The position numbers and the translations under genes are program-made. From contig NZ_CP051151.1 of NCBI RefSeq assembly GCF_013745115.1, positions 372,001 to 436,000 of the forward strand: a stretch of 64,000 nucleotides of DNA. The letters are read 5' to 3'. Source of the DNA: Hujiaoplasma nucleasis (GTDB taxonomy: Bacteria; Bacillota_I; Bacilli_A; Izemoplasmatales; Hujiaoplasmataceae). Of the stretch, positions 3,337 to 55,051 are shown piece after piece. The stretch's first letter is position 1; every line of letters begins with the position of its first letter. The notes beneath the pieces were generated by a model, which was not told the origin of the DNA, did not search any database, and saw nothing but the letters and a program-made list of their open reading frames with translations.

Positions 3337-3352
3337 TATATTAATTGAATAG

Positions 3353-3498
3353 ATTATAGGTGTAGCAATACATAACAGGGAATTGAGTAATCTCAAGCTG
3401 TCCCAGCAACCGTGATACAGACGAAATGCAATAATCCACTGCAATAGCGGGAAGGATGCAAATTAGGATGAAGTTAAGCCGGTAGACCTACCTATAAT
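3353..3498 (+). ncRNA. cobalamin (vitamin B12) riboswitch
   Basis: The conserved core is readable: an ACAGGGAA block, the TTGAG/CTCAA hairpin, GCTGTCCC-AGCAACCGT, then AAGCCGGTAGACCTACC at the 3' end. P1 is a 9-bp stem, ATTATAGGT (3353-3361) with ACCTATAAT (3490-3498). A switching segment AGACCTA (3484-3490) is complementary to TAGGTCT (3556-3562) in the downstream terminator. This suggests a transcriptional off switch: ligand holds P1 and the core, and the terminator forms. It controls the DUF4430/ECF operon that follows. Confidence 0.9.
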
Positions 3499-3545
3499 TA
3501 AATGTTTTCTCCTGGGTAATGAGAAAGAAAAGCATTGCTTTTTTT

Positions 3546-3569
3546 AGACCTGGGATAGGTCTTTTTTTT
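3546..3569 (+). terminator. riboswitch expression-platform terminator
   Basis: The stem AGACCT (3546-3551) / AGGTCT (3557-3562) is followed by a run of T. The 3' arm can instead pair with 3484-3490 of the riboswitch, giving the antiterminated form. A small AAAGCA/TGCTTT element lies just before it. Confidence 0.8.
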
Positions 3570-3614
3570 ATTTTCGGGAGAACAGTTCAAAATACACTTT
3601 ACTGAGGAGAAAGT

Positions 3615-5516
3615 ATGAAAAATTTTAAGGTTTTACTGTTATTTGTTTTTATTTTTGTAGGTTTTTTTGCATGTTCGGAAGATTTAAGCACAGACATTCC
3701 TTCAATCGAAGTCACTATTGGTGAAGAAACTCATTTGCTTGAAATTGATGATTTTGATGGTTCCTTACTTGACTTAATTGAGAATTCAAGTATTGAAGTA
3801 ACATATGAAAGCACTAATTATGGGGCTATGATTACAGCGATTGGTTCCTTATCTCAAGATCAGTTTCACTGGATAGGTTTTACAAAAAATAATGAAACTG
3901 CGGACCAAGGCGTGGATACTATAGATTTTGTTGATGGAGATATCTTTGAATTCACTGAAAATTTATCAACCTGGTCACTATCTTTAACATTAAATTATCA
4001 AGATATTAATCAAGATTCTTATATCTTTGTTTTTGAAGATACATCTATATATGTTCCTAAAGATCAAATGAGTCAATTTGATTTAATACAGGGTGAGGAT
4101 TATCATGTTACCCTAACTCCTACTTCTGAAGATCAATCTATTATTTATGCTAGTGTTAGTGAGATTAGTCCTATTTATGATGGTTCTATTGATATTAAAA
4201 TTGGTGAAAATATAAGTGAAATTTTTTATACCAATGAAATGAAATCAACTATGTCATTAATGGATTTAATTGAATCAAGTCCAATTCAATTAAATTATAT
4301 TGAAACAACATATGGCCCTATGCTTACACAAATTGGAGAATATCAACAAGATGATTTTCATTGGATTGGATTTATGAAAAATAATGAATTTGCTAGTTTA
4401 GGCTTAGATCAAATAGAATATTCAAATGGGGATGTCTTTGAATTCACTGAGAACTTATCAACTTGGACACAAGAATTGACAATGACTTATGATGTGATGG
4501 AGGAAGATCATTATATTTTCCTTATTAATGACACAAGTGTATATGTAGAAGTTAGTCAGGTTAATGATTTAGAATTAATAAGTGGTGAAGAATACCATCT
4601 TATTGGAAGTGCATTAGAAGAAGGTATCGAAGGTGTTCAATTTTCAATTACTCAAATCTCTCCAGCATATGATGGCGTTGTAGATATTATATTAGAAGAT
4701 GAAACCTATAAACTTACATTTACTAATGAGATGCAAGATCAAATGTCATTATTAGATTTAATCGAAACGTATGAAATAGATTTAAAATACACTGATACAA
4801 CTTATGGACCTATGGTGACTAAAATAGGTTCTTTGCAAGCAGATGACTTTCATTGGATTGGTTTTACTAAAAATGGTGAATTTGCTATGGAAGGCTTGGA
4901 TCAAATAAATTATATGGATGCAGATGTATTTACATTTTCTGAAAATCTATTATTTTCTACTAATTTAAGTGCTGAACTTGTCAGTAAAGCAGATGATTAC
5001 TATGTTTTTGAAAACCAAAATCAAGCATTCAAAGTGTATCATGAAGATCTTCCACAGGCATATTTAGAAGATTATTTACATCTTGGATTTTTCTATAGAT
5101 TATCTGGTGAAATTGATCAAAGTCATGAAAACGAAAATGTCTTGTTGGTTGACGAAATCAATATAGATTATATAGAGGATTTTAGAGAACTTTTCGAGAT
5201 TGAAGAGGGAGAAATTTTTATATTGAAATTTAAGGTAACTTATCAAGTAGAGAGTTCAGAATTTGGTATTGAAATTTTTGCAGAAGATATTAATGGCTTA
5301 TCAAGTACAGACATTTCAAATCAAATGAAATATCCAAGTACAACCAATTATATTTTTTATACCATACCAGATGGATATGATTTAAATCTTGACCAAGTCT
5401 ATGTAGGTAAATTTATTTATCAAGTTAATGCTCCAAGTTCTATTCCTCAAATCACTTTATATGAGTTTGATTTATATGGTAATCCTTTAGATCAAGCTAT
5501 CTATTTAAGTGAGTAA
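3615..5516 (+). CDS. surface lipoprotein with three DUF4430 (transcobalamin-like) repeats
   Basis: Predicted lipoprotein: the signal peptide ends in the lipobox FFAC (Cys at about residue 20). Three repeats of about 164 residues start near residues 26, 190 and 354. Each carries a DUF4430-like core with the pattern LLDLIE, YG.M.T.IG, FHWIGF.KNNE.A, GD.FEFTENL. DUF4430 is the family related to the C-terminal cobalamin-capping domain of transcobalamin and intrinsic factor. Between the cores are OB-like beta segments. The last 190 residues are a further beta-rich region of unknown family. GGAG (3606-3609) supports the ATG. Its place directly under a B12 riboswitch and ahead of an ECF S component suggests it binds cobalamin or an analogue at the cell surface. 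The ligand is inferred, not shown. Confidence 0.8.
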   Translation: MKNFKVLLLFVFIFVGFFACSEDLSTDIPSIEVTIGEETHLLEIDDFDGSLLDLIENSSIEVTYESTNYGAMITAIGSLSQDQFHWIGFTKNNETADQGVDTIDFVDGDIFEFTENLSTWSLSLTLNYQDINQDSYIFVFEDTSIYVPKDQMSQFDLIQGEDYHVTLTPTSEDQSIIYASVSEISPIYDGSIDIKIGENISEIFYTNEMKSTMSLMDLIESSPIQLNYIETTYGPMLTQIGEYQQDDFHWIGFMKNNEFASLGLDQIEYSNGDVFEFTENLSTWTQELTMTYDVMEEDHYIFLINDTSVYVEVSQVNDLELISGEEYHLIGSALEEGIEGVQFSITQISPAYDGVVDIILEDETYKLTFTNEMQDQMSLLDLIETYEIDLKYTDTTYGPMVTKIGSLQADDFHWIGFTKNGEFAMEGLDQINYMDADVFTFSENLLFSTNLSAELVSKADDYYVFENQNQAFKVYHEDLPQAYLEDYLHLGFFYRLSGEIDQSHENENVLLVDEINIDYIEDFRELFEIEEGEIFILKFKVTYQVESSEFGIEIFAEDINGLSSTDISNQMKYPSTTNYIFYTIPDGYDLNLDQVYVGKFIYQVNAPSSIPQITLYEFDLYGNPLDQAIYLSE

Positions 5517-5517
5517 A

Positions 5518-5970
5518 ATGAATATTAGTTTAAAAATTAAAATATTATTATCTGTCATTATGGCTGGATTACTAGTTATAGTGATGGTCTTTTTACTTGA
5601 TTTAGGTCCTGATCAAGAAATAGAAACTGAAAATTCAATTGGCCAAATTGCTTTTATACTCTATGATGAATCAAATTCTGTTGTTCTTGCAGATGATTTA
5701 AAATTCTATGAAAATGACACTTTATTTACACTATTAAAAAGACATTACACTTTGGTCTGTGCCAATCAATTTTATAAAGCAGACCCATCATGCTCCCACA
5801 AATTTCCTAATGGGTATGTATTATTAGCCATTGAAGATATAGAGTCGGATTGGTATAATACTGTCTTAACTATTTATGTTAACCATGAACGAGCAAATTA
5901 TGGTGTATCTATGCTGAATTTGAATGATGGGGACATCATTGAAATCAAAAGGACTGATTATGATGAATAA
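5518..5970 (+). CDS. membrane-anchored single DUF4430 protein
   Basis: Small protein of 150 residues with one N-terminal membrane segment (about residues 7-28) and one extracellular DUF4430-like domain: LFTLLKRHY, a central LLAIEDIESDWYNTVL block, then VNHERANYGVS and LNDGDIIEI. It is a divergent partner of the three-domain lipoprotein before it. ATG at 5518 follows that gene's stop by one base; an in-frame GTG at 5509 would give an 8-base overlap. No strong ribosome site is seen for either, so translation is probably coupled. It overlaps the next gene by 11 bases. Likely role: passing the captured ligand to the transporter (inference). Confidence 0.7.
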   Translation: MNISLKIKILLSVIMAGLLVIVMVFLLDLGPDQEIETENSIGQIAFILYDESNSVVLADDLKFYENDTLFTLLKRHYTLVCANQFYKADPSCSHKFPNGYVLLAIEDIESDWYNTVLTIYVNHERANYGVSMLNLNDGDIIEIKRTDYDE

Positions 5971-6475
5971 TCATGTGAAAGAAATAAGCTTATTGGCCAT
6001 ATCAACAAGTATATTGATAGTACAAGAATATGTCTTACAATTTTTACCAAACATTCAGCTTACAACATTATTAATCTTGGTATATACCTATGTTTTTGGG
6101 TTAAAGAAAACATCTATGATTGTCTTAGTTCATGTTTTTATAGATAATTTATTGTTGGGTTCTATTGGTATGATACACGTATGGTTACCTATGCTTTTGG
6201 CATGGTTACTGATAACATTTTTATTTTCTTTACTAATTAAGAAAAGTCATAATCTATTGGTATATGCTTTTTCAGCTTACTTGTTTGGACATTTATATGG
6301 TCTTATCTTTGCACCGTTTCAAGCATTATTACTAAATGTTCCAATGACGCCTTACCTAATTGCTGATATTCCATTTCAACTCATTATGGGTATTACTAAT
6401 TTTCTTACTATTTTATGGTTTTTTCCAGTTTTATCTAAATTTTTATCTGATTTATATAAACATTATCAACATTAA
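5960..6475 (+). CDS. ECF transporter S component, probably for cobalamin or a precursor
   Basis: Very hydrophobic protein of about 171 residues with five or six membrane segments, the size and character of ECF S components (substrate-binding subunits). The start is set at ATG 5960 because AAAGGA (5947-5952) lies 7-8 nt upstream; the longer frame from 5924 has no ribosome site. It overlaps the preceding DUF4430 gene by 11 bases. No EcfA, EcfA' or EcfT gene is in the window, so it would use a shared energizing module (group II arrangement). Specificity for cobalamin rests on the riboswitch and on the DUF4430 partners; it resembles CbrT-type context rather than a sequence I can name with certainty. 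Confidence 0.7.
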   Translation: MMNNHVKEISLLAISTSILIVQEYVLQFLPNIQLTTLLILVYTYVFGLKKTSMIVLVHVFIDNLLLGSIGMIHVWLPMLLAWLLITFLFSLLIKKSHNLLVYAFSAYLFGHLYGLIFAPFQALLLNVPMTPYLIADIPFQLIMGITNFLTILWFFPVLSKFLSDLYKHYQH

Positions 6476-15663: not shown

Positions 15664-16512
15664 TTACTCATTAATTAGATTATTAGAAGATATAAAATTG
15701 TAAAGAACAAAGCTTGGAATAGCAAATGATTTGGTTCCATCGTCAGATCCCCAGGTATTAATACCTATTAAATTCCCATCCACATCGACAAGGGCACCAC
15801 CACTTGATCCTTCATCAATTTCAGCATTATGTTCTATAACAATAAAATCAACATTTTCTATCAAAGAAATTCGAACAAACTTCCCTATCGATACATTATT
15901 GTAAAATCTTAATGGATTACCAACAGCCATTACAAGCTCATCAGCTTTCATTCTATAGCCAAGTCTTTGAGAAATATTTATAAATTCAACACTTTGTCGA
16001 TTGTTTTTTTCAAATCTCAAGATTGCTAAATCAAGATCTTTATTTGATATTAAGACTTCAGCTTCATGATAAGAAGTATCCTCGTAAGTTTTAACTTCGA
16101 ATTTTATGGTTGCAAAACTTGGAGATGAAACATTAGAATTTTCAATAACATGATGATTCGTGACTGCATAATAATATGATTCATCAGCTTGATATATAAA
16201 GCCTGAACCAGAAATAATATCATCATTAAAACCTGTAGATATAGTTGTTTTAATTGAAATGGTTGATTTCACAACATGTTCTTTAGTATTTAATAATATT
16301 TGATTATATTGATCAATACTATTTAAGCTGTATGTTTCTGAAACATATATTGGTAATTGACTGTAATCTTCGTAACTATAAAATTCTCCTGAATAAGTAG
16401 CATTGAGAATCTGTTGGTTGGTTTGGGGAATAAAATAAGAACACGATCCCATAAATAAGGTGAAGAAGAGTGTTAAAATTAGCAATATTGATTTAATCTT
16501 CTTATTAGTCAT
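15664..16512 (-). CDS. HtrA/DegP-like trypsin-fold serine protease, lipoprotein
   Basis: Surface lipoprotein with a signal peptide and lipobox MGSC (Cys at about residue 24). The protease domain has the full triad: His in VTNHHVIE, Asp in NKDLDLAILRF, and Ser in EGSSGGALVD. It ends soon after the second beta barrel, so there is no PDZ domain; total length is 282 residues. The start is ATG 16512, about 11 nt after AGGA; the GTG at 16521 sits too close to that site. It diverges from the giant repeat-protein gene across 136 bp. A role in surface protein quality control or processing is plausible. Confidence 0.86.
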   Translation of the reverse strand: MTNKKIKSILLILTLFFTLFMGSCSYFIPQTNQQILNATYSGEFYSYEDYSQLPIYVSETYSLNSIDQYNQILLNTKEHVVKSTISIKTTISTGFNDDIISGSGFIYQADESYYYAVTNHHVIENSNVSSPSFATIKFEVKTYEDTSYHEAEVLISNKDLDLAILRFEKNNRQSVEFINISQRLGYRMKADELVMAVGNPLRFYNNVSIGKFVRISLIENVDFIVIEHNAEIDEGSSGGALVDVDGNLIGINTWGSDDGTKSFAIPSFVLYNFISSNNLINE

Positions 16513-16621
16513 ACTATTCACATCCTACAATTTCTGTTTTTATATATTCATTATACTATATAAAATTAAAAAAAATTAAAAAGATAATCACATATTTCTT
16601 TATATTTATAAAAAATAAAGA

Positions 16622-16648: not shown

Positions 16649-19600
16649 ATGGGAATTGATATACAAGATATGGGATTGTATTTAAATATTGCCTTTTTCT
16701 CAGTCTTAGCTATTGGATTTATTTTTGGACTGATTAAGGGTTTTAGAAGGTCCTTGTATACATTTATAATTACACTGATATTTCTTGCGGTGTTCTTTTT
16801 GACTGTTAATACAGTTGTTTCATGGTTTTACGAAGCTGAAATTAGTTTTTTAAATAACCTTTATCAACAATACTTGCCTGTTGAGGGAACGCCTCAAAGT
16901 GTTAGGGATATTGTTCATTTAATGTTACAAGAATCAGCTGGAGAATATTTTAATGCTAGTGAATCTAGCGCTCAAGTGATTGCGTTTATCGATTCTCTAG
17001 GTACTTTTATCTTAAAAATTGTATATACTATATTATATTTCACAGTATTCCAAATCATTTATAGATTTTTATTCTTTATTATTGGTTTATTCATATTTGC
17101 TAAAGGAAGAGCAAAGAACAAGAAAGGTAAAAGAAGTAGACCTCTTGGTGGTGTCTTTGGAACCTTAACGGCCGCTTTAAATCTATTTGTGATGATTATT
17201 GTTTTAAGTGGTGTAATCAGTATCGCAGAGAGCTTATCTTCTTTGGATTTAATCCAGGGTCAAGAAGTAAGTTTAACTTCTCAAGCTAAACCAAAAATCA
17301 CAGATTTTAATCAATCTTTAAATAAAGTAGGAAGACTTCAATATAATGAGTTAGCTGAGGCTGATCAACAATTAAATGAAGCTTTAGAATCTCTTAACGG
17401 TATCATCGACGCCTATAATAGCAATATAATTATTCAAGTTGTTGATAGTTACAAGGTCGAAGATGAATTCACTGGCGAAGAGAAGAATATGGCCATAGTT
17501 TTATTTGATGAAGTTTTATCAATGAATTATAAGGACCAGCAAATAGGTATTAGAGAGGATTTAAAAGTTTTTGTAAGTGTTGCTAACACCTATTTAAGTT
17601 CTGATTATTATGATAGTGGGAATTTGAATGATATTAAATCAGAAGAAGTAACTAGTATCTTTACCGATTTATCAAAATCAAAATTATTGACTTCACTTAT
17701 TCCTGTAGGTATTGAAGTAGGTGTTGATTCATTTGATGTGGATGGTTTTGAAATTGATGATGAATTTAGAGAATTAATTTATAATGACATTGATTGGCAA
17801 GATGAGATTCAACAACTAGGTGGTGTAGTGACTGCTGGGATAATGATTCTTGAAAACGCTAATCCAACGGGTGAAGAAATAGATTATACAACTGTTCCAT
17901 TTGATGGAGATTTAACTGAAACAATGTTCACTGAACTATCTAATTCTAAACTTGCTGAATATGGTGCTTTTATTGCTTTTGATTATGTTTTAACAAATAA
18001 CGAAGACGTAGGTTCAGTTTTTATTACTGTTCCTGAAAATATTGACTGGGTAAAAGAATTTAAAGCCTTCGGTATGATAGCCAATGAGATTTTAAGCACA
18101 GGAATTACAGTGTCAGATTTTGAAAACACAGAAGGACAAGATTTATTGTTGCTATTTTCTGGTGTTGATTTAACTGTCTTAATGGAATCAGATTTAACAA
18201 CTAGAGCTTTGGTCAATATATTAAGTGGAAAGACAAATATTAGTCTTAACATCGAGTTTTTAAAGATACCTACTTTAACAGATGCTGAGTGGTTAGATAC
18301 ATTGGATCAAGATGGTGATCTCTTAGCTTCTGGTGAGTTAAGACTTATACTAGAAAGTCTAAACATTATGGTCCAATATTTAGAAGAAATTGATTTTGAT
18401 AATCTTGATCCAGCACAACTATCTTCATTTACCGATAGTGATATAGACAACATGTTTAATTCATTAATTTTAGTCGCATCAATTACTGAAGTCATTAAAA
18501 CTTTAGATACTGGTGGCATTGAACTCATTATTCCTGACTCAGTTTTGGATAATGATGGATACATCACTAAAACTGAAGTTAAGACTTTATTTAAATCTAT
18601 TAAACTAATTGCAAGTGAAACAGCGTGTGATCCTGATGATGACCAATGCGCTACTGAAGGTTTTGATATCGATAAAGCCTTTGCCCTTGAACCAAATCAA
18701 ATTGGTCAGTTGTTTGAATCTGAGATTCTTTATGCGTCTTCTGCAAAAATGCTTATTGATTTTGAACAACTTATAGTTCCTGAAGATGTTAAAGAAACTA
18801 TTTTGGTTGAAGCCAATGATGTAATTATCATTTCTAGAGAAGAACTAATCTCTGCCTTTATTGCTGTTGGCGCTATGGATATTAGCATTGATGAAGAGTT
18901 AGTTTTTGATGAAAGTATCTTGCTAAACTTATCTAAAGATCCTGATAATGATCCGACCACACTGGATACTAGTAAGACTGATAAACTATTTGCTTCAAAG
19001 GTCTTACATGCAACCATATCAGATTTCTTATTAAAACAAGCTAATCCTACACCTCCTGAAACTTCAAATATAATCATTCCATACTTTTCATCTGAAAATT
19101 ATGAAGTTCCTGAAGGAGAAGACCCAACAAACCTTGTTATCATTGAAGACGCTATTGGTGATGTTACTTATGTTTCTTCATATGAATTGGTTGAAATTCT
19201 TCAAGCAGTTTTGATACTTGATATAACTGATTTTTCTACCATAGATGACTTTGATTTAGGCTTAATTATTGAAAACACTGATGAATTATTAGATTCTGCT
19301 ATATTACATGCGACTATTTCTGATCAATTAAAAAATTCATCAACATCTGAGTCTTTAGTTGTTCCAAGTCAAGATATTGATGGTTTTTCAATTGAAATCA
19401 CTGTTGGTGAAGATGAAGAAGCAACAACATATATTAAAAAAACTGAATTATCTGCAATCTTTAATTCACTGGATATTTTAGGTATAGAAGATTTAAATAA
19501 TATTACTGTTGAAACTCTTGATTTTGCTTTAATTATTGATAATATTGATGATTTGTTGGCTTCAGCGATATTACACGCGACTATTTCTAGTGAGATATTT

Positions 19601-22600
19601 GCACAAACTGATAACGAAGCCTTAGTATTACCTTCATTAGATTTAAATAATAGTCCTGTTATTAAGAATGTAGATCAAACTGATTATATTGTAAAAGCTG
19701 AAATTTCTAATACTTTACAAGCTTTACAAGTCTTTGGTATCGAAGATTTTGATGATTTTAATACTATGACTTTTGACTCATCTTTAATACAAAAACTATC
19801 TGTTGATCCAATTACTGATCCGACAAGCTTAGATCAAAATAAGTCAAGCAAAATATTCTCTTCAAAGATTATTCATGCAAGTTTATCTAAAGTATTGTTT
19901 GATGCTGGTGCACCTGATGAAATTACTGGTGAAAGTGATTTAATTGTGCCATATGTAGCCGCAGTAAACTATACAGGAACTAGTTCTGATTTAGTTAGAT
20001 TTGTTACAGATGATGGTGATGAGTACATTATTGAAGCCGAGCTAACAGAATTATTTAAATCTGTTTTAGCTTTAGATATAGAAGATTTTAATGAAGTTGA
20101 TACCTTATTCTTATCTGATATTTTACCTCATAGAAATATCATCTTTAATTCTGCAATTTTACAAGCAACCATTTCTGATAAAATTATTGAACTAGGTAAT
20201 GATGGTAATTTAACTGTTCCTAGTTTGGATTTAAATAATGATCTAATTATTATGAGTAAAGGTGATGTTTCAAAAAATCAAAACACTGAATATATAGATA
20301 AAGATGAATTAATTAATACATTAGAAGCATTAGATGCTTTAGGTATTAATGATTTTAATAATATTGAAGTCGATGCATCTATTATTAAAGAAATGTCTGT
20401 TGATCCGATCAATGATCCTACAACATTAGATGAATCAAAAGCAGATACGGTCCTTTCATCTAAGATTGTTCACGCAACAATATCACAAGTATTATTTGAT
20501 GCTGGTGAACCTGATGAAATCACTGGAGAAAGCGACTTAATTATTCCTTATGTTGCTGCTAGTAATTATTCTAGTACAAGTAGCAGTTTGGTTAGATTTG
20601 TTAGCAATGATTCTGATACTTATATCATTGAAGAAGAATTAACTGAATTGTTTAGAGCGGTATTGGCTTTAGATATTGCTGATTTTAATCAAGTAGATTC
20701 CTTGTTCTTGTCTGATATATTACCTCATCGCTTTATAATCTTTAATTCAGCTATATTACAAGCTACAATTTCAGATAAAATAATTGAACTAGGTAATGAC
20801 GGTAATTTAACTGTTCCTAATTTGGATTTAAGTAACCAAGAAATTTTAACGACCAAGGGTGATGCTTTATTAAATGAAGATACAACTTATATTATTGAAA
20901 ATGAGTTAATTAATACCTTAGAAGCATTAGATGTACTTGGTATTAATGATTTTAATAATGTTGAAGTTGATGCATCTATTATTAAAGAAATGGGAACTGA
21001 CGCTGATAACACTATTTTAGATGAAACTAAATCCAATACTGTTTTATCTTCAAAGATTGTCCATGCGACGATCTCTCAAGTTTTATTTGACGCTGGTGCT
21101 CCTGATGAAATCACTGGTGAAAGTGACTTAATTATTCCTTATGTTGCAGCAATAAATTACTCAAGTACAAGTAGTGATTTAGTTAGATTTATTAGCAATG
21201 ATTCTGATACTTATATTATAGAAGAGGAATTAACTGAATTGTTTAGAGCTGTTTTAGCTTTAGATATTGATGATTTTAATCAAGTAGATTCTTTACTCTT
21301 ATCTGATATTTTACCTCACAGAAATTTCATCTTTAATTCAGCTATTTTACAAGCTACAATTTCAGATAAAATTATTGAATTAGGTAATGATGGTGATTTA
21401 ACTGTTCCAAGCCTTGATCTTAGTAATGAAGAAGTACTAACAACTAAGGGTGATACTTTATTAAATGAAGATACAACTTACATTATTGAGGATGAATTAA
21501 TCAATACTTTAGAGGCTCTTGATGTTCTTGGTATTAATGATTTTAACAATGTAGTGGTTGATGCTTCGATTATTAAAGAAATGGGTACTGATGCTGATAA
21601 TACTGTTCTAGATGAATCTAAATCTGCTACTGTCTTATCTTCAAAGATTGTTCATGCAACCATTTCACAAGTACTATTTGATGCAGCCACACCAGATGAA
21701 ATCACTGGTGAAAGTGATTTAATAGTTCCATTTGAAGCAACTGAAATCTATTCATCAACATCTAATGCAGAGGTTAGATTCATCACAAGTGATACAGATA
21801 CTTATATTGTTGAAGATGAATTAACTGAATTATTTAGAGCTGTATTGGCTTTAGATATTGATGACTTCGGTCAAGTAGATACTTTATTATTATCAGATAT
21901 TATTCCTCATAAAGATTTTATCTTTGATTCAGCGATTATTCATGCGACTATTTCGGATAAGATCATTGAATTGGGAAATGATGGTGATTTAACTGTTCCA
22001 AGTCTTGATTTAAGCAATCAAGAAGTCTTAACAACCAAAGGTGATGCTTTATTAGAAGAAGACACTGATTATGTTGTTAAAGTAGAGCTTATTAATACTT
22101 TGTTAGCTCTACAAGTATTAAATATAAATGATTTTAATAATGTTGAAGTTGATGCTTCTATAATAAAAGAAATGGGAACTGATGCAGATAACACTATTCT
22201 AGATGAAACTAAATCTAATACTGTCTTATCTTCAAAGATTGTTCATGCAACTTTAACAAAGATTATTTTAGATTCAAATGAACCAGATGAACTTACTGGT
22301 GAAAGAGACTTAATTGTTCCATTTATTGCTTCTGAGGTTTATACAGATTTAACTGATGAAGTTAGATTTGTAAGCAATGATTCTGATAAATATATTGTAG
22401 AGTTAGAATTAACTGAGTTATTTAGAGCCATTTTAGCTTTAGATATTGAAGATTTTAACCAAGTTGATTCTTTATTATTATCAGATATTATTCCTCACAA
22501 AGATTTTATCTTTGATTCAGCGATTATTCATGCGACTATTTCTGATAAGATTATTGAATTGGGTAATGATGGTGATTTGACAGTTCCTAGTTTAGACTTA

Positions 22601-25474
22601 AGTAACATTGATGTCACTATTTCAAAAGGGGACGTTTTATTAGAAGAAGATACTGATTATATTATAAAAACAGAACTTATCAATACCTTATTAGCTCTAC
22701 AAGTTCTTAAAATCAATGATTTTAATAATGTTCTTGTTACAACAGCAATTATTAAAGAAATGGGAACTGACGTAGATAATACTGTTTTAGATGAAACAAA
22801 ATCTTCTACTGTATTAGCTTCTAAGATTGTTCATGCAACATTATCAAAAATTATTTTAGATTCAAATGAACCTGATGAAATCACTGGCGAAAGAGATTTA
22901 ATTGTACCGTTTATAGCAGCTAGTGATTATAGCGATATGACTGATGAAGTTAGATTTGTAAGTAATGATTTGGATAAATATATAGTTGAACTAGAGTTAA
23001 CTGAGTTATTTAGAGCTGTATTGGCCTTAGATATTGAAGATTTTAATCAAATTGATGCTTTATTATTGGATGATATTATTCCTCATAAAGACTATATCTT
23101 TAATTCTTCTATTATTCATGCGACCATTTCTGATACGATTATTCAATTAGGTGTTGATGGGGACTTAACAGTGCCTAGCATGGATTTAAATAATGATGAT
23201 ATTACATTTATTAAGGGTGATATTTTATTAGAAGAAGATACTGAATATATTTTGGTAGACGAGTTAAAAAATACTTTGGATGCATTAAAAGTTTTAGGTA
23301 TACAAGACTTTAATAACGTTATAATTGATGCTGGTATACTTCAAAATTTATCTGTTGATCCAATCAATGATCCAACGACTTTAGATAATCTTAAAAAAGA
23401 TACAGTATTATCTTCTAAAATAGTTCATGCTTCATTATCCAATATGATTATTGACTCTGGCGAACCAGATGAAATTACTGGTATTAGAACCTTAATTGTA
23501 CCGTTTATTGCTGCTGTAGATTATGTGGATTTAACAGATGAAGTTAGATTTGTAACTAGTGACTCAGACAAGTATATCGTTGAAGTTGAGTTAACTGAGT
23601 TCTTCCAAGCTATCTTGGCATTAAATATTGATGATTTTAATGATGTAGATACTCTAACCTTACAAGATATTATTAATAATCAAGATGATTTATTAGATTC
23701 AGCAATTCTACATGCTACTATTTCAAAACAAGTTTTAGATTTAGAAGTATCAAATACTAGTATTAGTATTCCTGAATATAATGATGCTGGACAAAGCATT
23801 ACTATTATAGATAATACTGATATTGGTCACGTGATTACTTATTTACAAAAAGATGAATTAACCAATTTCTTTGCATCTGTAAACTTGCTAGGAGATGTGA
23901 CTACCATTGATTCATTTAATGGTACGGTTTCTTTAGATTTATTCTTAAAGTCAAACAACCCTACAACTTACGAAGACAATCAAGACACATTATTGGCTTC
24001 ATCAATTATGCAAGCTACTATTTCATTAAAAGTATCTGATTTAGATGTTCAAGGAAAAGTATTTATTCCTAGTGTTACGATTAATGAACAAGCAGTAGAA
24101 GTCACACATGCAACAGATTACTTTATATATAAAAACGAATTAAAGGCTTTAATTAATGTTATGGATGTTGTTGGTTTAACAAGTATTGAAAGTTTTGGTG
24201 GAGATTTTACTTTAAGTTCATTCTCTACAGAAGCAAGCCAAAATACTTTAATTGCTTCAGCCATTATGCATAGAACCTTGTCTCAACAATTATTAGATAA
24301 TACATCTATTATTGTTCCAAGAGAGTCATTAGAAGAAAACTTGACAAGTGAAGATATCCATATTACTACAACTATCGCTAGTGAAGATTACATTATTGGT
24401 GATGAAATAAAAGCCTTAATTACTGTAATGAATATTATTTCAAGTCCTGAAGCCAGTATTGATTCAATCTCAAGTGATATTGACTTTAGTAAATTTGATG
24501 AAGACCTATATCCTGGAAATCAAGATATTTTATTAGCTTCAGCGATTATGCATGCTTCTTTAAGTGATGAAATGATTAGTTTAAATGATGATGTCTTATT
24601 TGTTCCAAAATATAGTGAATTAAGTCAAACTCAAACTGATCAAATTAGATTTGATGATGTAAGTGGTACTGATTTTATTAAGAAGTCAGAGATTAAACAT
24701 ATTCTTAATGCCTTCCTAGAAATGGGTTATAATGATTTATCTGCATTTGATAATAACCCTACATTAGAACCAAGTAAATTCTTTGATAATATTACTTTAT
24801 ACTTAGAATCAGCATCATTCCATGCGACTATCTCTAATAAGATTCTTGCTGGAACAAGTCCTAACTTGATTATTCCTTCTAGGGATATTGATGATACTTA
24901 TGACATTAAGATTGTTCATGCAGAACTTACTTACGTAGAAAGCAATGAAACGATTGCTTTAGTCAATGCTTTAAATGAGTTAAGCATTAGTGATTTCAAC
25001 TCTGCTATCTCAGGATCAGCAATGACTTCTTTAACAGATGGTCAGTTAGACACCATATTAACTTCTGGTTCAATGCATTTATCTATTGATGATATCATTC
25101 AGGCTAACTCTAATATCAATACAAATATTCCTGACAAAGCATTGGCTGATATATTTGCCTTAAGTGATATATTGATCAAAGATGAAGTTAAAAACTTTAT
25201 CTTAGCCGCAAAAGCATTTAGTGGTGAAGGTTCAGATATTCAATCTGTAGATTTCACGACATTAGATATGGTAACCTTATCGAACATGCCTGAAGGCCAA
25301 AGAACAACTATCTTATCATCTATGATTGTAAGAAATATTCTTACACCACAAGTAGAACAAGCAGATACTTTTGATCCTACATTTACCTTAACTGCAAGTG
25401 ACTACGAAGATGGTTTAACTAATACATTCTTAACATTGGCTGGATTCAATCGATATATTGCACATATAAGTTAA
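16649..25474 (+). CDS. giant CvpA-like membrane-anchored tandem-repeat protein (2941 residues)
   Basis: The N-terminal 200 residues are a CvpA-like membrane domain: four hydrophobic segments near residues 10-32, 36-58, 116-150 and 172-192, with GLIKGFRRSLYTF after the first and a basic loop KNKKGKRSR. The rest is an acidic, Asp/Asn/Ile-rich region made of about 24 copies of a unit of about 85-105 residues. Each has the core S-[AK]-I-[LIV]-H-A-[TS]-[IL]-S, a VP strand, an acidic loop and a helix ..ELI..L.AL..L.I.DFN. In the middle, two unit types alternate to give a 196-199 residue dimer repeat. The C-terminal 140 residues closely match the end of the next gene. No enzyme motif is seen. The repeat region is probably outside the cell (inference). 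A large scaffold or adhesin is possible. Confidence 0.75.
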   Translation: MGIDIQDMGLYLNIAFFSVLAIGFIFGLIKGFRRSLYTFIITLIFLAVFFLTVNTVVSWFYEAEISFLNNLYQQYLPVEGTPQSVRDIVHLMLQESAGEYFNASESSAQVIAFIDSLGTFILKIVYTILYFTVFQIIYRFLFFIIGLFIFAKGRAKNKKGKRSRPLGGVFGTLTAALNLFVMIIVLSGVISIAESLSSLDLIQGQEVSLTSQAKPKITDFNQSLNKVGRLQYNELAEADQQLNEALESLNGIIDAYNSNIIIQVVDSYKVEDEFTGEEKNMAIVLFDEVLSMNYKDQQIGIREDLKVFVSVANTYLSSDYYDSGNLNDIKSEEVTSIFTDLSKSKLLTSLIPVGIEVGVDSFDVDGFEIDDEFRELIYNDIDWQDEIQQLGGVVTAGIMILENANPTGEEIDYTTVPFDGDLTETMFTELSNSKLAEYGAFIAFDYVLTNNEDVGSVFITVPENIDWVKEFKAFGMIANEILSTGITVSDFENTEGQDLLLLFSGVDLTVLMESDLTTRALVNILSGKTNISLNIEFLKIPTLTDAEWLDTLDQDGDLLASGELRLILESLNIMVQYLEEIDFDNLDPAQLSSFTDSDIDNMFNSLILVASITEVIKTLDTGGIELIIPDSVLDNDGYITKTEVKTLFKSIKLIASETACDPDDDQCATEGFDIDKAFALEPNQIGQLFESEILYASSAKMLIDFEQLIVPEDVKETILVEANDVIIISREELISAFIAVGAMDISIDEELVFDESILLNLSKDPDNDPTTLDTSKTDKLFASKVLHATISDFLLKQANPTPPETSNIIIPYFSSENYEVPEGEDPTNLVIIEDAIGDVTYVSSYELVEILQAVLILDITDFSTIDDFDLGLIIENTDELLDSAILHATISDQLKNSSTSESLVVPSQDIDGFSIEITVGEDEEATTYIKKTELSAIFNSLDILGIEDLNNITVETLDFALIIDNIDDLLASAILHATISSEIFAQTDNEALVLPSLDLNNSPVIKNVDQTDYIVKAEISNTLQALQVFGIEDFDDFNTMTFDSSLIQKLSVDPITDPTSLDQNKSSKIFSSKIIHASLSKVLFDAGAPDEITGESDLIVPYVAAVNYTGTSSDLVRFVTDDGDEYIIEAELTELFKSVLALDIEDFNEVDTLFLSDILPHRNIIFNSAILQATISDKIIELGNDGNLTVPSLDLNNDLIIMSKGDVSKNQNTEYIDKDELINTLEALDALGINDFNNIEVDASIIKEMSVDPINDPTTLDESKADTVLSSKIVHATISQVLFDAGEPDEITGESDLIIPYVAASNYSSTSSSLVRFVSNDSDTYIIEEELTELFRAVLALDIADFNQVDSLFLSDILPHRFIIFNSAILQATISDKIIELGNDGNLTVPNLDLSNQEILTTKGDALLNEDTTYIIENELINTLEALDVLGINDFNNVEVDASIIKEMGTDADNTILDETKSNTVLSSKIVHATISQVLFDAGAPDEITGESDLIIPYVAAINYSSTSSDLVRFISNDSDTYIIEEELTELFRAVLALDIDDFNQVDSLLLSDILPHRNFIFNSAILQATISDKIIELGNDGDLTVPSLDLSNEEVLTTKGDTLLNEDTTYIIEDELINTLEALDVLGINDFNNVVVDASIIKEMGTDADNTVLDESKSATVLSSKIVHATISQVLFDAATPDEITGESDLIVPFEATEIYSSTSNAEVRFITSDTDTYIVEDELTELFRAVLALDIDDFGQVDTLLLSDIIPHKDFIFDSAIIHATISDKIIELGNDGDLTVPSLDLSNQEVLTTKGDALLEEDTDYVVKVELINTLLALQVLNINDFNNVEVDASIIKEMGTDADNTILDETKSNTVLSSKIVHATLTKIILDSNEPDELTGERDLIVPFIASEVYTDLTDEVRFVSNDSDKYIVELELTELFRAILALDIEDFNQVDSLLLSDIIPHKDFIFDSAIIHATISDKIIELGNDGDLTVPSLDLSNIDVTISKGDVLLEEDTDYIIKTELINTLLALQVLKINDFNNVLVTTAIIKEMGTDVDNTVLDETKSSTVLASKIVHATLSKIILDSNEPDEITGERDLIVPFIAASDYSDMTDEVRFVSNDLDKYIVELELTELFRAVLALDIEDFNQIDALLLDDIIPHKDYIFNSSIIHATISDTIIQLGVDGDLTVPSMDLNNDDITFIKGDILLEEDTEYILVDELKNTLDALKVLGIQDFNNVIIDAGILQNLSVDPINDPTTLDNLKKDTVLSSKIVHASLSNMIIDSGEPDEITGIRTLIVPFIAAVDYVDLTDEVRFVTSDSDKYIVEVELTEFFQAILALNIDDFNDVDTLTLQDIINNQDDLLDSAILHATISKQVLDLEVSNTSISIPEYNDAGQSITIIDNTDIGHVITYLQKDELTNFFASVNLLGDVTTIDSFNGTVSLDLFLKSNNPTTYEDNQDTLLASSIMQATISLKVSDLDVQGKVFIPSVTINEQAVEVTHATDYFIYKNELKALINVMDVVGLTSIESFGGDFTLSSFSTEASQNTLIASAIMHRTLSQQLLDNTSIIVPRESLEENLTSEDIHITTTIASEDYIIGDEIKALITVMNIISSPEASIDSISSDIDFSKFDEDLYPGNQDILLASAIMHASLSDEMISLNDDVLFVPKYSELSQTQTDQIRFDDVSGTDFIKKSEIKHILNAFLEMGYNDLSAFDNNPTLEPSKFFDNITLYLESASFHATISNKILAGTSPNLIIPSRDIDDTYDIKIVHAELTYVESNETIALVNALNELSISDFNSAISGSAMTSLTDGQLDTILTSGSMHLSIDDIIQANSNINTNIPDKALADIFALSDILIKDEVKNFILAAKAFSGEGSDIQSVDFTTLDMVTLSNMPEGQRTTILSSMIVRNILTPQVEQADTFDPTFTLTASDYEDGLTNTFLTLAGFNRYIAHIS
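19573..23400 (+). repeat. higher-order tandem repeat inside the giant gene, period about 590 bp
   Basis: The equivalent of the codons for HATIS (or QATIS) recurs at 19573, 20161, 20758, 21349, 21940, 22528 and 23116, spacings of 588, 597, 591, 591, 588 and 588 bases. All are multiples of three. Each period holds two related half units (the SAI.HATISDKII type and the SKIVHATISQVLF type). Copies between about 20,400 and 22,900 are the most alike at DNA level, which suggests recent amplification by unequal recombination. Confidence 0.88.
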
Positions 25475-25490
25475 AAAGACTATAAAAATA

Positions 25491-25522
25491 GAGGCTGATT
25501 TATAATCAGCTTCTTTTTTTTT
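25491..25522 (+). terminator. terminator after the giant gene
   Basis: The stem GAGGCTGATT (25491-25500) / AATCAGCTTC (25504-25513) is followed by nine T. Confidence 0.85.
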
Positions 25523-25580
25523 CCATTATTTGCTTGAAATTTACTAATTTATAGTATAATGAAAAAAAAGGAGGGGCTTT

Positions 25581-28448
25581 ATGTTTTTAAATGTTTTTGC
25601 ATCTATTGACATTGTTTTTTATATTATTATAGGAATTGCTGTATTCTTTGGTTTTTTAAGAGGATTTAAAAAGTCATTGTTTACTTTTATTGTGATGGCT
25701 ATTTTCTATATTGTTTTCTTTATTACATTAGATTTAATGGTAGATGTCTTATGGAAAATGGAATTATCATTTTTAGGAAATGTTTTATCCAATTTAGATT
25801 CAAGTTTGGCAAACTTTCAATCTTTTGAAAATGATTATCAAGCCATTATACAAGTCTTGTTTAATGATAGTTTTGATTTTTCACAGGCAGATATGAATGC
25901 TTTAGCTATTGGATTGGTTCAGTTTGCTGTAAAGATCATTTGGGCTATTGCTTACTTTACTGTTATTTTAATTTTATATAAAATTATTACTGGTATTATT
26001 AGACTTATTGTTGTTAGAAAGAAAGGTAAGAAAAGACATTTGCTTGGTGCTGTTGTTGGTGCTTTAAACGGGGCTATGGCTGTTTTTGTATCTCTTATTG
26101 TCTTGGGTGGGGGTATTTCCTTTATTGAGTCTGCGACACTGATTATGCCAGATGATGAGGCAAGCAACACTGAAACCTTATCCCTAGTATCTAGACCCAA
26201 TATTTTAGAACTTAACCGGTCAATTATACAAGATCAAATGAATACCTTGGCTGAAAGTAATTCTGATCCATTAATTCCAAGTGAAACTAGGGAAATGATG
26301 GATGAACTTGTTGAGAACTATAATAATAATGTTATTGTTAAAATTGCCAATAGCATTAAAGTATCTTCAACCTATGATGAATCTGTAGAAGTTCCTTTAC
26401 ATATCAATTTATTTGATTCAGTCTTATCCTTTGAATATAAAGAGACAAATATTGCTTTAAGACATGAATTATCTATGTTTTCTAAGGCTTACAATGTGAT
26501 ATTAAATTCTGATTATGCTGATTCTAATGAAATCACAGATATTAAAGGTGAAGATATTAGGTTAGCTTTTTCATACCTAGAGTCTTCAGCTATTCTTCCA
26601 ACTTCATTACCAATTATTATAAAGTATCTAGCTGAAGAAAATGAGATTACTCTATCCGTGTCTGATGAAGAACTATATAATTATGATTATAAGGCTGAAC
26701 TTGGGCGCTTATCTAATATTATTGCTGGTTTATTTGATATTTTAAATGAACAAGCTGTATCTATAGATGCTGATGGTAATGAAGTTACCATTGATGGTGC
26801 TTGGGTCAAAGGGATCTTTGATGATGTGTCTGAATCAAGAATTATATTATTGGCCACTGAAGCTTTCTTAGTGCCTATGATAGAAGAAGGTGAAGGCGGT
26901 TTATCATCAATGCTTGATATACCTAGTAACTTTTCTTGGGAAAATGAATATCTTGCTTTAGGTAATATTCTAGCTGAGTTCGTGGATAATGATATATCAA
27001 TTAAATCCATAGAGTCTAGTGATTTTAATACCTTGATTGAATCCTTCGCACAAATTGATATCACAGTATTACTAGATTCTGAATTATTAACTTCGGCTTT
27101 AATCAATATTCTTAGTCAAGAAACTGATGTTGAGGGTGTAGATTTCTTAACCGTTCCTCAAAATATTACTTGGCGATCTACAGAACTTCAAACTGGTGAG
27201 TTGGAATACTTATTAGTCGCTATCAAAAATATCATTATTGATAATGATGGTCTTGATTTAGAAAACTTTGATATGGATGTTTTGACATCTTTATCAGAAA
27301 CTACCATTGATTCAATCTTAGATTCTTATATCATGCGTGCTACCATAACTACTGAAATCAACGCTCTAGAGCTTGGGGATTCAATATTGGTTATTCCTGA
27401 TGAAACCTTGGATAGTCAAAATTATTATAGTAAAACAGCTTTAAATAATTTAATTAATGCAATTGAGTTAATCTATGATGATATTGATAATTTCTCATTA
27501 GATACACTCTTTGCGATGGATTCATCTGAGTATGATGTTTTATTTGAATCTAAAATTATTCGAGCTACCGTGACTTCTGAGTTAGAAAATCTTGACTTAG
27601 GTTCATTTACTTTGATTATTCCAGATAATACTTATGAAAATGATGATTATTTATATAAAAACGAAATTGTTGAGTTAATGACATCGATTCAAGTGATCTC
27701 TGATGATATATCAACTTTTTCTATTGAAACTTTATATACTTTAACCGACCAAGAACTCGATGATTTATTGGCTTCTAAAGTGATTCAAGCAACAGTATCA
27801 GATATCATATTAGCCAATGCAGTTCTAACACCAAGTGCTGGAAGTATTGTATTTATTGTTCCATCTATTTTTAGAGAAAATATTCAAGTCAATAACCTAA
27901 GTGCAGAACAAATAGAAAGCACAGAGTTAAAGGCAATTATTAAATCATTCAATGCCTTAGGAATTACAGATTATGATGGTGGCTTAGATCCATCTTCTTT
28001 AGGTTCAAATTTAGATTATGCTTTAATCTTAAACAGTGGATCAATGCATTTAACCATTGACCATATGATTCAAAGTAATAGTGAAATTAACAGTGGAATT
28101 CCTGATAAGGCAAAAGCTGATATTTATGGCTTTAATGATATATTAATTAAAGATGAAATTACCAATTTTATATTAGCTTCACAAGCCTTTACAGGCGAAG
28201 GTTCTGATGTTCAAACTGTTGATTTTGATTCTTTAGATATAGTGAGTTTATCTCAAATGCCAGAAGCTCAAAGAACTACAATCTTATCTTCTATGATTGT
28301 AAGAAATATTCTTACACCTAAAGTAGAAGATGCAGATGATATTGATCCTACATTTGCTTTAACTGCTGGCGATTACGAAGATGGAGATATTAATTCATTC
28401 TTAACATTGGCAGGTTTCAATCGCTATATTGATCATTTAAATAATTAA
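25581..28448 (+). CDS. CvpA-like membrane-anchored repeat protein, short paralogue of the giant protein
   Basis: 955-residue protein with the same plan as the 2941-residue neighbour: a CvpA-like domain with four hydrophobic segments (FGFLRGFKKSLFTF after the first, then a KKGKKRH basic loop), an acidic repeat region, and a near-identical C-terminal segment (about 70% alike by eye over 140 residues, ending LTLAGFNRYI). Only about five repeat units occur (cores SYIMRATIT, SKIIRATVT, SKVIQATVS, SGSMHLTID, SSMIVRNIL). It may represent the basic form from which the giant expanded. AAGGAGGGG supports the ATG. It has its own terminator, and a terminator also separates it from the giant gene. Function unknown. 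Confidence 0.75.
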   Translation: MFLNVFASIDIVFYIIIGIAVFFGFLRGFKKSLFTFIVMAIFYIVFFITLDLMVDVLWKMELSFLGNVLSNLDSSLANFQSFENDYQAIIQVLFNDSFDFSQADMNALAIGLVQFAVKIIWAIAYFTVILILYKIITGIIRLIVVRKKGKKRHLLGAVVGALNGAMAVFVSLIVLGGGISFIESATLIMPDDEASNTETLSLVSRPNILELNRSIIQDQMNTLAESNSDPLIPSETREMMDELVENYNNNVIVKIANSIKVSSTYDESVEVPLHINLFDSVLSFEYKETNIALRHELSMFSKAYNVILNSDYADSNEITDIKGEDIRLAFSYLESSAILPTSLPIIIKYLAEENEITLSVSDEELYNYDYKAELGRLSNIIAGLFDILNEQAVSIDADGNEVTIDGAWVKGIFDDVSESRIILLATEAFLVPMIEEGEGGLSSMLDIPSNFSWENEYLALGNILAEFVDNDISIKSIESSDFNTLIESFAQIDITVLLDSELLTSALINILSQETDVEGVDFLTVPQNITWRSTELQTGELEYLLVAIKNIIIDNDGLDLENFDMDVLTSLSETTIDSILDSYIMRATITTEINALELGDSILVIPDETLDSQNYYSKTALNNLINAIELIYDDIDNFSLDTLFAMDSSEYDVLFESKIIRATVTSELENLDLGSFTLIIPDNTYENDDYLYKNEIVELMTSIQVISDDISTFSIETLYTLTDQELDDLLASKVIQATVSDIILANAVLTPSAGSIVFIVPSIFRENIQVNNLSAEQIESTELKAIIKSFNALGITDYDGGLDPSSLGSNLDYALILNSGSMHLTIDHMIQSNSEINSGIPDKAKADIYGFNDILIKDEITNFILASQAFTGEGSDVQTVDFDSLDIVSLSQMPEAQRTTILSSMIVRNILTPKVEDADDIDPTFALTAGDYEDGDINSFLTLAGFNRYIDHLNN

Positions 28449-28490: not shown

Positions 28491-28527
28491 GGAGGCAATT
28501 ATCTTTTCGGTAATTGCCTCTTTTTTT
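28491..28527 (+). terminator. terminator after the second CvpA-like gene
   Basis: The 10-bp stem GAGGCAATTA (28492-28501) / TAATTGCCTC (28511-28520) is followed by seven T. Confidence 0.85.
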
Positions 28528-28587: not shown

Positions 28588-30318
28588 ATGAAAAAGAAAA
28601 TTTTATCAATCATAATGATGGTTATATCATTCTTTGTATTAATAGCTTGTAACACTGTCATCAATGATACAAATACCACTAATGAATTTACAAATGAAAA
28701 TACGACTGAATTAGTTACAAGTGAAGAACCTACAAGTCTTCAGCCAACAACTGAAGAGATTAGTACTGATATCCCTACTAATCTACCAACTGACCCTACT
28801 ACTGAGGAAGTAACTGAAGAACCTACAACAGAAGTACCAACAGAAGAACCAACGACTCTTCAACCTACAACAAGTGAACCGACAACTGAGTTTCCTACAG
28901 AAGAGCCTACTCAAGTAACAACAGAAGAACCAACAAGTTCAGATCCTATCGTTGAAATTAACTTATTTTCTATTAATGATTTTCATGGAGGAGCTTATAC
29001 TGGCATGGATATGATGTCAAGAGTTGGTTATTATCTTAAAAATTTTGAGGGTAATCATCTTGAAATATCAAATGGCGATATATTTCAAGGTTCTGCTTTA
29101 AGTAACTATTATCAAGGAAGAATATTAGTTGATATATTAAATGAAGCTGGTTTTGATGGTTTTACCATAGGTAACCATGAATTTGATTGGGGCATTGATA
29201 TCATTGGTAATTATCAAGATAATGATGATACTAATGGCGAGTTAAATCATCCGATTTTAGCAGCTAATATTGTTTATGAAGATACAGGACTACCTCTAGA
29301 ATTTACCCTTCCATATATGATTGAAGAATTTGAAGGCGTACGTGTAGGTGTTATTGGTCTAATTGGTTCAGTTATGAATTCAATTGCTGCTTCAAGAACT
29401 GAAAACATTTTATTTTTAGATCCTGTAGATACCGCAGCTCAATATGCAAGTGAGTTAAGAGAAAATCATGATGTTGATATTGTGGTAGTATATATTCATC
29501 AAGGCTCTGAAGAAAACACTGAATTTGCTAATCTATCGGGTTCATCTAGAATAGACGCTATGTTTAATGCCCATACCCATCAATTAGAAGCATCATATGT
29601 TAGTCGTGCATTAACAGATATGCCTTATGCACAAATGAACAATTATGATTCATCTTTAGTACATATTTCATTAACTTATGATAAAAATTTGAATAGAATT
29701 ATAGATTTTTCATCAAATATTATAGAGAATGACCAAATGATTATATCAGATTCTATTATTGATCAAATTATTCTAGAATATTCTACCAATACCGAATATA
29801 CAACTTATATTAACGAAGTCTTAACCATTTCTGAAGGTAATTATTATCGTAACGATATGGCCCAATGGGGAGCTTCAGTTATCAGAGACTATGCAGGCGT
29901 AGATGTTGGAGCAACCAATGCAGGTGGCTTTAGAGTATCTATGGAAGCTGGTCAAGTAACTATGGGGGATTTAATGACAATATATCCATTTGATAATGTT
30001 ATTAAAACTTCAGAAATGACTGGTCAACAATTAACTGATTTTTATCTGGAAGTTATTCAATATAACTCTGATGTCGTTTTCGATGATGGTTTATATTATA
30101 ATTATGCTTCTAATCAATTATTTATTGATGGTGGTCCAATTGTATTAAACCAATATTATACCGTTGGGGCTGTAGATTATATTTTCGATAAGACTTATTA
30201 TGATTTTCTTGAAGGTCAAAATATTAGACAAACAATTTATTTTATGAGAGATTTATTGGTTTTAGATTTAAAGAATGCAACTGATGGTTTTAATCCTTCA
30301 GATGGTTCACATTATTAG
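28588..30318 (+). CDS. surface 5'-nucleotidase / metallophosphatase lipoprotein (UshA-like)
   Basis: Lipoprotein with lipobox LIAC (Cys near residue 21), then about 90 residues of Thr/Glu/Pro-rich linker. The metallophosphatase domain carries NDFHGG near residue 130, NGDIFQGS, the metal-binding and catalytic GNHEFDWG near residue 194, and NAHTHQ near residue 327. The 5'-nucleotidase C-terminal substrate domain starts near residue 405 and includes NAGGFR. It likely strips phosphate from external nucleotides so nucleosides can enter; a pyrimidine-nucleoside phosphorylase lies 1.9 kb downstream. AGGAG before the ATG and TATAAT at 28553-28558 suggest a single-gene unit. Confidence 0.92.
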   Translation: MKKKILSIIMMVISFFVLIACNTVINDTNTTNEFTNENTTELVTSEEPTSLQPTTEEISTDIPTNLPTDPTTEEVTEEPTTEVPTEEPTTLQPTTSEPTTEFPTEEPTQVTTEEPTSSDPIVEINLFSINDFHGGAYTGMDMMSRVGYYLKNFEGNHLEISNGDIFQGSALSNYYQGRILVDILNEAGFDGFTIGNHEFDWGIDIIGNYQDNDDTNGELNHPILAANIVYEDTGLPLEFTLPYMIEEFEGVRVGVIGLIGSVMNSIAASRTENILFLDPVDTAAQYASELRENHDVDIVVVYIHQGSEENTEFANLSGSSRIDAMFNAHTHQLEASYVSRALTDMPYAQMNNYDSSLVHISLTYDKNLNRIIDFSSNIIENDQMIISDSIIDQIILEYSTNTEYTTYINEVLTISEGNYYRNDMAQWGASVIRDYAGVDVGATNAGGFRVSMEAGQVTMGDLMTIYPFDNVIKTSEMTGQQLTDFYLEVIQYNSDVVFDDGLYYNYASNQLFIDGGPIVLNQYYTVGAVDYIFDKTYYDFLEGQNIRQTIYFMRDLLVLDLKNATDGFNPSDGSHY

Positions 30319-54961: not shown

Positions 54962-55045
54962 GTTTCGCACCCCCTCTTTTTTTAAGACTCGCCATCGTTG
55001 GTAGTTCTAAGAACGTTTGTGACCAATTCTGTGCGGTATGCATAC
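54962..55045 (-). ncRNA. structured rplU leader, L21-leader-like
   Basis: The 80-nt 5' leader between the promoter and rplU holds TTGGT...ACCAA pairing around an inner GTTCT/AGAAC hairpin, and a CGTATGCATACCG element at its start. Position and size fit the L21 ribosomal leader known in Bacilli. The match was not checked against a model. Confidence 0.5.
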
Positions 55046-55051
55046 GAAAGT

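Follow-up and report, generated by a model that had tools for sequence, protein, structure and literature searches.

Two giant repeat proteins on predicted CvpA-type membrane anchors in Hujiaoplasma nucleasis and their relatives in Bacilli

Giant repeat-containing surface proteins are known from Gram-positive bacteria and mycoplasmas, Ebh and Gli349/Gli521 among them: proteins of thousands of residues, made of tandem structural units and exposed at the cell surface. The helices of another protein, the protease MarP, are assigned to CvpA. In MarP-type proteases (NF033740; M. tuberculosis Rv3671c), four helices make up the N-terminus, and the C-terminal domain, a trypsin-fold protease of about 200 amino acids, lies outside the membrane (PMC4992679). 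In E. coli, colicin V export and resistance to the bile salt deoxycholate both require CvpA, which has been proposed to be an exporter (PMC6705877). Here, we describe a locus of Hujiaoplasma nucleasis in which two adjacent genes, P1 and P2, join a CvpA-like membrane domain to an array of repeats. The two proteins share large size, tandem units and predicted surface exposure with Ebh and Gli349/Gli521, but they have other anchors and other repeat folds, with no sequence or fold relation in PDB searches. Anchored giant surface proteins are already known; a giant array on a CvpA-type anchor across much of Bacilli seems to be new. In the literature searched, on CvpA in Mollicutes, giant proteins in Tenericutes and the Haloplasma surface, we found no description of such an array and no experiments on P1, P2 or any homologue.

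The window, that is, the whole stretch of 64,000 nucleotides that was analysed, belongs to a genome assembled as a single contig of 1.81 Mb. The features of the locus are as follows.

15664-16521, minus strand: HtrA/DegP-like trypsin-fold protease with a lipoprotein-like N-terminus, divergent neighbour of P1
16649-25474, plus strand: P1, the long copy, 2941 amino acids, with CvpA-like anchor, 24 repeat units and tip
16649-17248, plus strand: CvpA-like membrane anchor of P1 with four helices, roughly residues 1-200, assigned from family-level PF02674 matches and positive-inside topology
17246-18442, plus strand: P1 membrane-proximal ectodomain, about residues 200-598, conserved in the family and resembling degenerate repeat units
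18443-25003, plus strand: P1 repeat array as far as residue 2785, with the first 23 units (the twenty-fourth belongs to the tip)
19862-23698, plus strand: six alternating A/B two-unit blocks of P1, 588-597 bp per block, plus an additional A unit
25066-25471, plus strand: P1 C-terminal tip, homogenised with that of P2
25490-25514, plus strand: terminator-like hairpin between the P1 and P2 genes
25581-28448, plus strand: P2, the short copy, 955 amino acids
25581-26144, plus strand: P2 four-helix CvpA-like anchor, residues 1-188
27306-27977, plus strand: first three repeat units of P2, residues 576-799 (the fourth belongs to the tip)
28037-28445, plus strand: P2 C-terminal tip, 77% identical in DNA to the P1 tip
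28491-28521, plus strand: terminator-like hairpin 3' of P2
28588-30318, plus strand: 5'-nucleotidase-family lipoprotein, downstream neighbour of P2

A first-pass annotation of this DNA had reported two giant reading frames, one of 2941 residues, and both proved free of internal stops under translation table 11; reading them with genetic code 4 brought no gain, as they are already open under table 11. Because a terminator-like hairpin sits between them, P1 and P2 are probably separate transcription units, and a single operon is unlikely. The arrangement recurs in the Izemoplasmatales family f1, where nearly all sufficiently complete loci that we read have the HtrA-like protease on the opposite strand, then the long copy, the short copy and, in those loci that reach far enough, the 5'-nucleotidase lipoprotein. 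The protease and the 5'-nucleotidase are surface neighbours of the giants, and perhaps their partners. Outside f1 we found no shared gene neighbourhood (the loci of f2, f3, f10 and f12 lie in differing surroundings), and no plasmid-borne relatives of P1 or P2 were found.

The roughly 190 N-terminal residues of P1 and P2 each hold four long hydrophobic helices, as the first-pass annotation had proposed, and the AlphaFold2 model of P2 places them at residues 3-27, 29-59, 103-144 and 153-188. The earlier assignment of this domain to the CvpA type holds up at the level of the family. Colicin_V (PF02674) is by far the commonest Pfam match, found at E<=0.01 in 28 of 58 family N-termini (best 6e-7; the next family reaches 6 of 58), and three relatives exceed its curated cut-off of 29.3 bits once neighbouring pieces are added. 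P1 and P2 themselves are too divergent for this cut-off: P1 has no match even at E<=1, and P2 scores 11.7 bits as a whole protein and 19.8 bits over its first 330 residues. A profile comparison (hhalign) of the family anchor with the canonical CvpA of the order gave 49.6% probability and an E-value of 1.7e-4 over only 32 columns, corresponding to helix 4; the controls, two membrane families without a relation to CvpA, reached 0.5% and 0.04%. Shared with PF02674 are the four-helix build, a basic loop with GF-x-RG after helix 1, and a basic loop with LG-x-x-x-G before helix 4; conservation in the anchor falls on glycines and aromatics and reveals no obvious motif for transport. Taken together, the sequence comparisons support, without proving, that the anchor of P1 and P2 is a remote CvpA homologue.

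In size the two proteins depart from the small stand-alone CvpA of about 160-250 amino acids, of which the host genome carries a canonical example elsewhere (243 amino acids; L100): the anchor here bears 770-2740 extra residues. The first-pass annotation had considered CvpA proteins to lack such extensions. This is not supported, because CvpA anchors with other ectodomains exist in the same order, and MarP carries its protease outside. A 780-amino-acid protein of family f2 (L101:1034-3373, minus strand, genome G079) has a CvpA domain above the Pfam cut-off and about 600 amino acids outside; it differs from P1 and P2 in having no HATIS repeats and in adjoining a secreted protein of 627 amino acids (L101:3494-5374, minus strand) without a Pfam match. 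Similar frames of 776-821 amino acids occur in many f2 genomes, several of which are without a giant. MarP also gives a precedent for the layout in which an outside domain follows a four-helix anchor, but P1 and P2 bear a giant, non-catalytic-looking repeat array in place of the protease. Searches of Pfam and NCBIfam matched no protease domain after the four helices of P1 or P2, and the trypsin-fold protease of this locus is encoded by a separate neighbouring gene.

Upon inspection of the charges around the helices, we noticed that loops 1-2 and 3-4 are net positive and that loop 2-3 and the segment after the fourth helix are net negative in 58 of 58 members. Because this pattern obeys the positive-inside rule, both ends of the anchor are predicted to lie outside the membrane and the repeats to face outward, in agreement with the orientation suggested earlier.

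We built an HMM of the repeat from P1 and refined it by iteration over relatives. It recognises 24 units within residues 599-2868 of P1 and 4 within residues 576-880 of P2, with best i-Evalues of about 1e-26, well outside what chance would give. The earlier estimate of about 24 units in P1 therefore stands, and that of about 5 in P2 is to be lowered to 4; homologous proteins have 2-27 units. Each unit spans about 100 amino acids, with the core LLxSxIxHATISxxL, a VP strand and then YIxxxELxxxxxALxxLGIxDF, so the acidic repeats around S-x-I-x-H-A-T-I-S described at first reading were recovered. Net charge in the ectodomain is about -14 per 100 amino acids, and cysteine is almost absent from it. 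Pairs of the A/B blocks of P1 are identical at 0.69-0.85 of their nucleotides, with dS of 0.8-1.1 and dN/dS of 0.07-0.34. With dS near 1 and such dN/dS ratios, the blocks are old duplications under purifying selection, and a recent expansion of the repeats in P1 is rejected.

No family in Pfam, NCBIfam or PHROGs, and no PDB sequence, explains the repeat, in keeping with the earlier view that it belongs to no known enzyme or S-layer family; Pfam and NCBIfam likewise place no S-layer homology or other known S-layer domain in P1 or P2. Matches of P1 to chlorophyll synthase, ATG5 and DUF6420 extend over 27-64 residues, lie far below or barely at their cut-offs, and are repeat-driven chance. Of 460 units, 60 carry the pattern D-x-[DN]-[GN] behind the VP strand, where 3 would be expected, and weak EF-hand matches were obtained (E 0.01-0.02, under the cut-off). 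The best EF-hand-like loops are without the Asp of position 1 in the canonical, helix-flanked D-x-D-x-D-G-x-I-x-x-x-E. Calcium binding by the repeats is a lead, not a finding.

Given a family alignment, AlphaFold2 modeled six P1 units with confidence (pLDDT 92.3, pTM 0.86), each unit forming a helix, a beta hairpin and then two to three helices. For the whole of P2, pLDDT was 84.9 and pTM only 0.64. In the six-unit model, from which its stiffness is read, the array is predicted to form a stiff, strongly acidic rod. Foldseek found nothing in the PDB at E<=0.001 for P2 (best 0.057) or for the six units (best 0.19), in a whole-array query that a match to a single unit could escape, and the fold of the repeat may be new to the PDB. 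The top non-significant matches of the P2 model were alpha-solenoids (FANCI, karyopherins; E of at least 0.057). The helix-rich repeat architecture resembles that of HEAT/karyopherin/FANCI solenoids, but the units of P1 and P2 are about 100 amino acids long and contain a beta hairpin, and the six-unit model is unmatched.

The two proteins are most alike at their C-terminal ends. A tract of 404 bp with 77% DNA identity (25066-25469 in P1, 28037-28440 in P2) begins abruptly at about residue 2803 of P1 and residue 816 of P2 and extends to the stop codon. The C-termini had been called near-identical; this is true of the last 60 or so residues, and over the last 138 residues the two are 72% identical, that is, strongly similar. 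Within the host genome, tip identity between the long and short copies is 72% and anchor identity 32%; for orthologues compared between species of the genus the order is reversed, the anchors keeping 56-62% identity and the tips 36-43%.

Phylogenetic trees of the two ends tell different histories. In the anchor tree, all short copies form a single clade inside f1 (support 100/99), so the duplication into long and short copies is old. In the tip tree, by contrast, the host's long tip is the sister of its own short tip (100/100) and the tips of genus g1 are intermixed; forcing the short tips into one clade is rejected with a p-AU of 1.6e-37. The concerted behavior is clear in the host genus and one or two others, and is absent from genus g2. 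Recombination or conversion between the tandem neighbours is the simplest explanation of these sequence patterns. A polymorphic toxin or CDI protein was considered and found no support: a single homologous tip domain is shared by f1, f2 and f10, and the adjacent gene encodes a 5'-nucleotidase, not an immunity protein. Nor are P1 and P2 likely to be phage or defence proteins: PHROGs matches of P1 are short and weak, PADLOC has none for P1 or P2, Foldseek of the P2 model against viral models returned no match, and a phage tail protein in particular finds no support in the PHROGs and viral-model searches.

We give an even chance to the reading that P1 and P2 are extracellular rods, held in the membrane by a CvpA-type domain and presenting a recombining tip, that serve envelope organisation or contact. 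In this model, the four-helix domain would sit in the membrane with both ends outside, and the membrane-proximal domain and then the array of units would project outward from the last helix. The number of units would set the length of the rod (24 versus 4 here), and each rod would end in the conserved, single-copy tip. One duplication in f1 would have given a long and a short copy with a common tip, which recombination between the tandem copies in several genera, that of the host included, would keep alike within a genome while tips diverge between species faster than anchors do. Rods of two heights would then show the same tip to one partner, for which candidates are the tip itself, borne by another molecule or cell (a homotypic contact), a shared surface ligand, or phage. 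Concerted evolution of the tip would mark where the function sits. The surface scaffold role proposed in the first-pass annotation is something we infer.

The same features could describe a stalk for adhesion or motility, with the rod a spacer for a tip that adheres to particles, DNA or cells, a role like that of giant adhesins or of the leg proteins found in gliding mycoplasmas. The great length and acidity of the outward array, its one conserved tip, the fact that this tip diverges fastest between species, and the wide range in unit number all fit such a stalk. We consider it unlikely, however: no known adhesin or ligand-binding domain was matched, carriers are free-living and host-associated alike, which leaves no common substrate, and those relatives from the order that have been cultured are reported to be non-motile cocci (PMC8397711, PMC10470597).

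A role in export or transport, in which the CvpA domain would be a transporter or channel and the ectodomain a chaperone- or bridge-like arm handling lipid, peptide or unfolded protein, is quite unlikely. The part played by E. coli CvpA in colicin V export and deoxycholate resistance, the faint resemblance of the P2 model to solenoids that bind proteins, and the adjoining HtrA-like protease point in this direction. Yet the anchor is only remotely CvpA-like and lacks an obvious transport motif, the fold matches are not significant, and the extreme variation in length suits a spacer better than a machine.

Returning to the rods, their relatives extend well beyond the host. Further proteins with a CvpA domain and repeats, which the first reading proposed to look for in Mollicutes-like Bacilli, were found: homologues occur in 65 of 90 Izemoplasmatales genomes (mostly in single copy in f2) and beyond the order. 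The repeat profile matches 94 of 395 Bacilli genomes; among the representative loci listed or read, the matches sit in giant frames, few of them shorter or truncated. The anchor profile, which includes distant members, matches 168 of the 395, most of the strong matches lying in frames of about 650-6056 amino acids. The pattern-based genome scan for relatives used the tip alignment, and named relatives of the tip domain come from Izemoplasmatales, from other Bacilli/Mollicutes MAGs and from one Haloplasma contractile MAG (B5_bin.1, f10). In genus g28, genome G080 is without the giant that G079 and G082 carry, a natural loss. The largest frame, of 6056 amino acids (L157, G198:C7, in a PBP-encoding genome), has a CvpA-like N-terminus and a helix-rich-looking ectodomain with no recognisable HATIS unit. 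The superfamily is thus united by its anchor, and the repeats mark only a narrower group. Such a class-wide kind of giant protein seems undescribed.

In the line that led to Mollicutes, Bacilli shed their wall more than once, which raises the question of how free-living wall-less cells keep their surface together. The host had been taken for a wall-less or near-wall-less cell, and its genome indeed encodes no PBP transpeptidase (PF00905), a lack shared by 89 of the order's 90 genomes. The sole PBP transpeptidase gene among the 90 (G013:C40:12172-13092) may be contamination or a rare retained gene. The cultured Izemoplasmatales zrk13 and zrk29 are wall-less by electron microscopy (PMC8397711, PMC10470597).

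The suggested tie of these proteins to wall-lessness did not survive a wider survey. PBPs are encoded by 44 of 148 strong carriers among the Bacilli (30%) and by 130 of 247 other genomes (53%; Fisher p 1e-5, on genomes that are not independent). All 5 strong carriers of f10, the Haloplasma lineage, and all 13 of f7, where frames reach 6056 amino acids, encode PBPs; all strong carriers of f12 and f16 are without them. A family confined to wall-less cells is rejected by the PBP-encoding carriers in f7 and f10, and with 44 such carriers in all, the giant predates wall loss or is independent of it. The f7 and f10 carriers would also fit an ancestral ruler or tether that arose in walled Bacilli to link the membrane to the outer surface and became the outermost layer in wall-less descendants, but this is improbable, as length does not track the presence of a wall in any way tested and many walled Bacilli families have no giant. 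The stalk, the transport arm and the wall-spanning tether overlap as readings.

A bolder version of the rod reading is doubtful as a whole: that an undescribed, class-wide superfamily of CvpA-anchored giants (about 650 to 6056 amino acids), with a repeat fold unseen in the PDB and present before or independently of wall loss, is a main envelope organiser, and that the two-height rods of f1 use their recombination-matched tips for self-recognition. With a conserved, large and predicted outward-facing protein on both sides of the wall-loss transition, the search for the wall's replacement would have a protein to test. Structural biology gains a confidently predicted repeat unit without a solved relative, possibly a new one.

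Several further features of the window deserve mention. The 5'-nucleotidase (28588-30318) and two alpha-amylase-like proteins (58802-61645 and 61842-63542) are surface enzymes with T/E/P-rich linkers after the lipobox. A probable locus for B12-related uptake lies at 3341-6475, where a cobalamin riboswitch precedes a lipoprotein with repeats, a small protein anchored in the membrane and a membrane protein of ECF type. A lipoprotein at 45767-47503 holds five to six similar GYIQWQYIGDxTWNNLLDLSTMTGSDG units, and a ribosomal protein L21 leader lies at 54975-55049 on the minus strand, as expected ahead of rplU.
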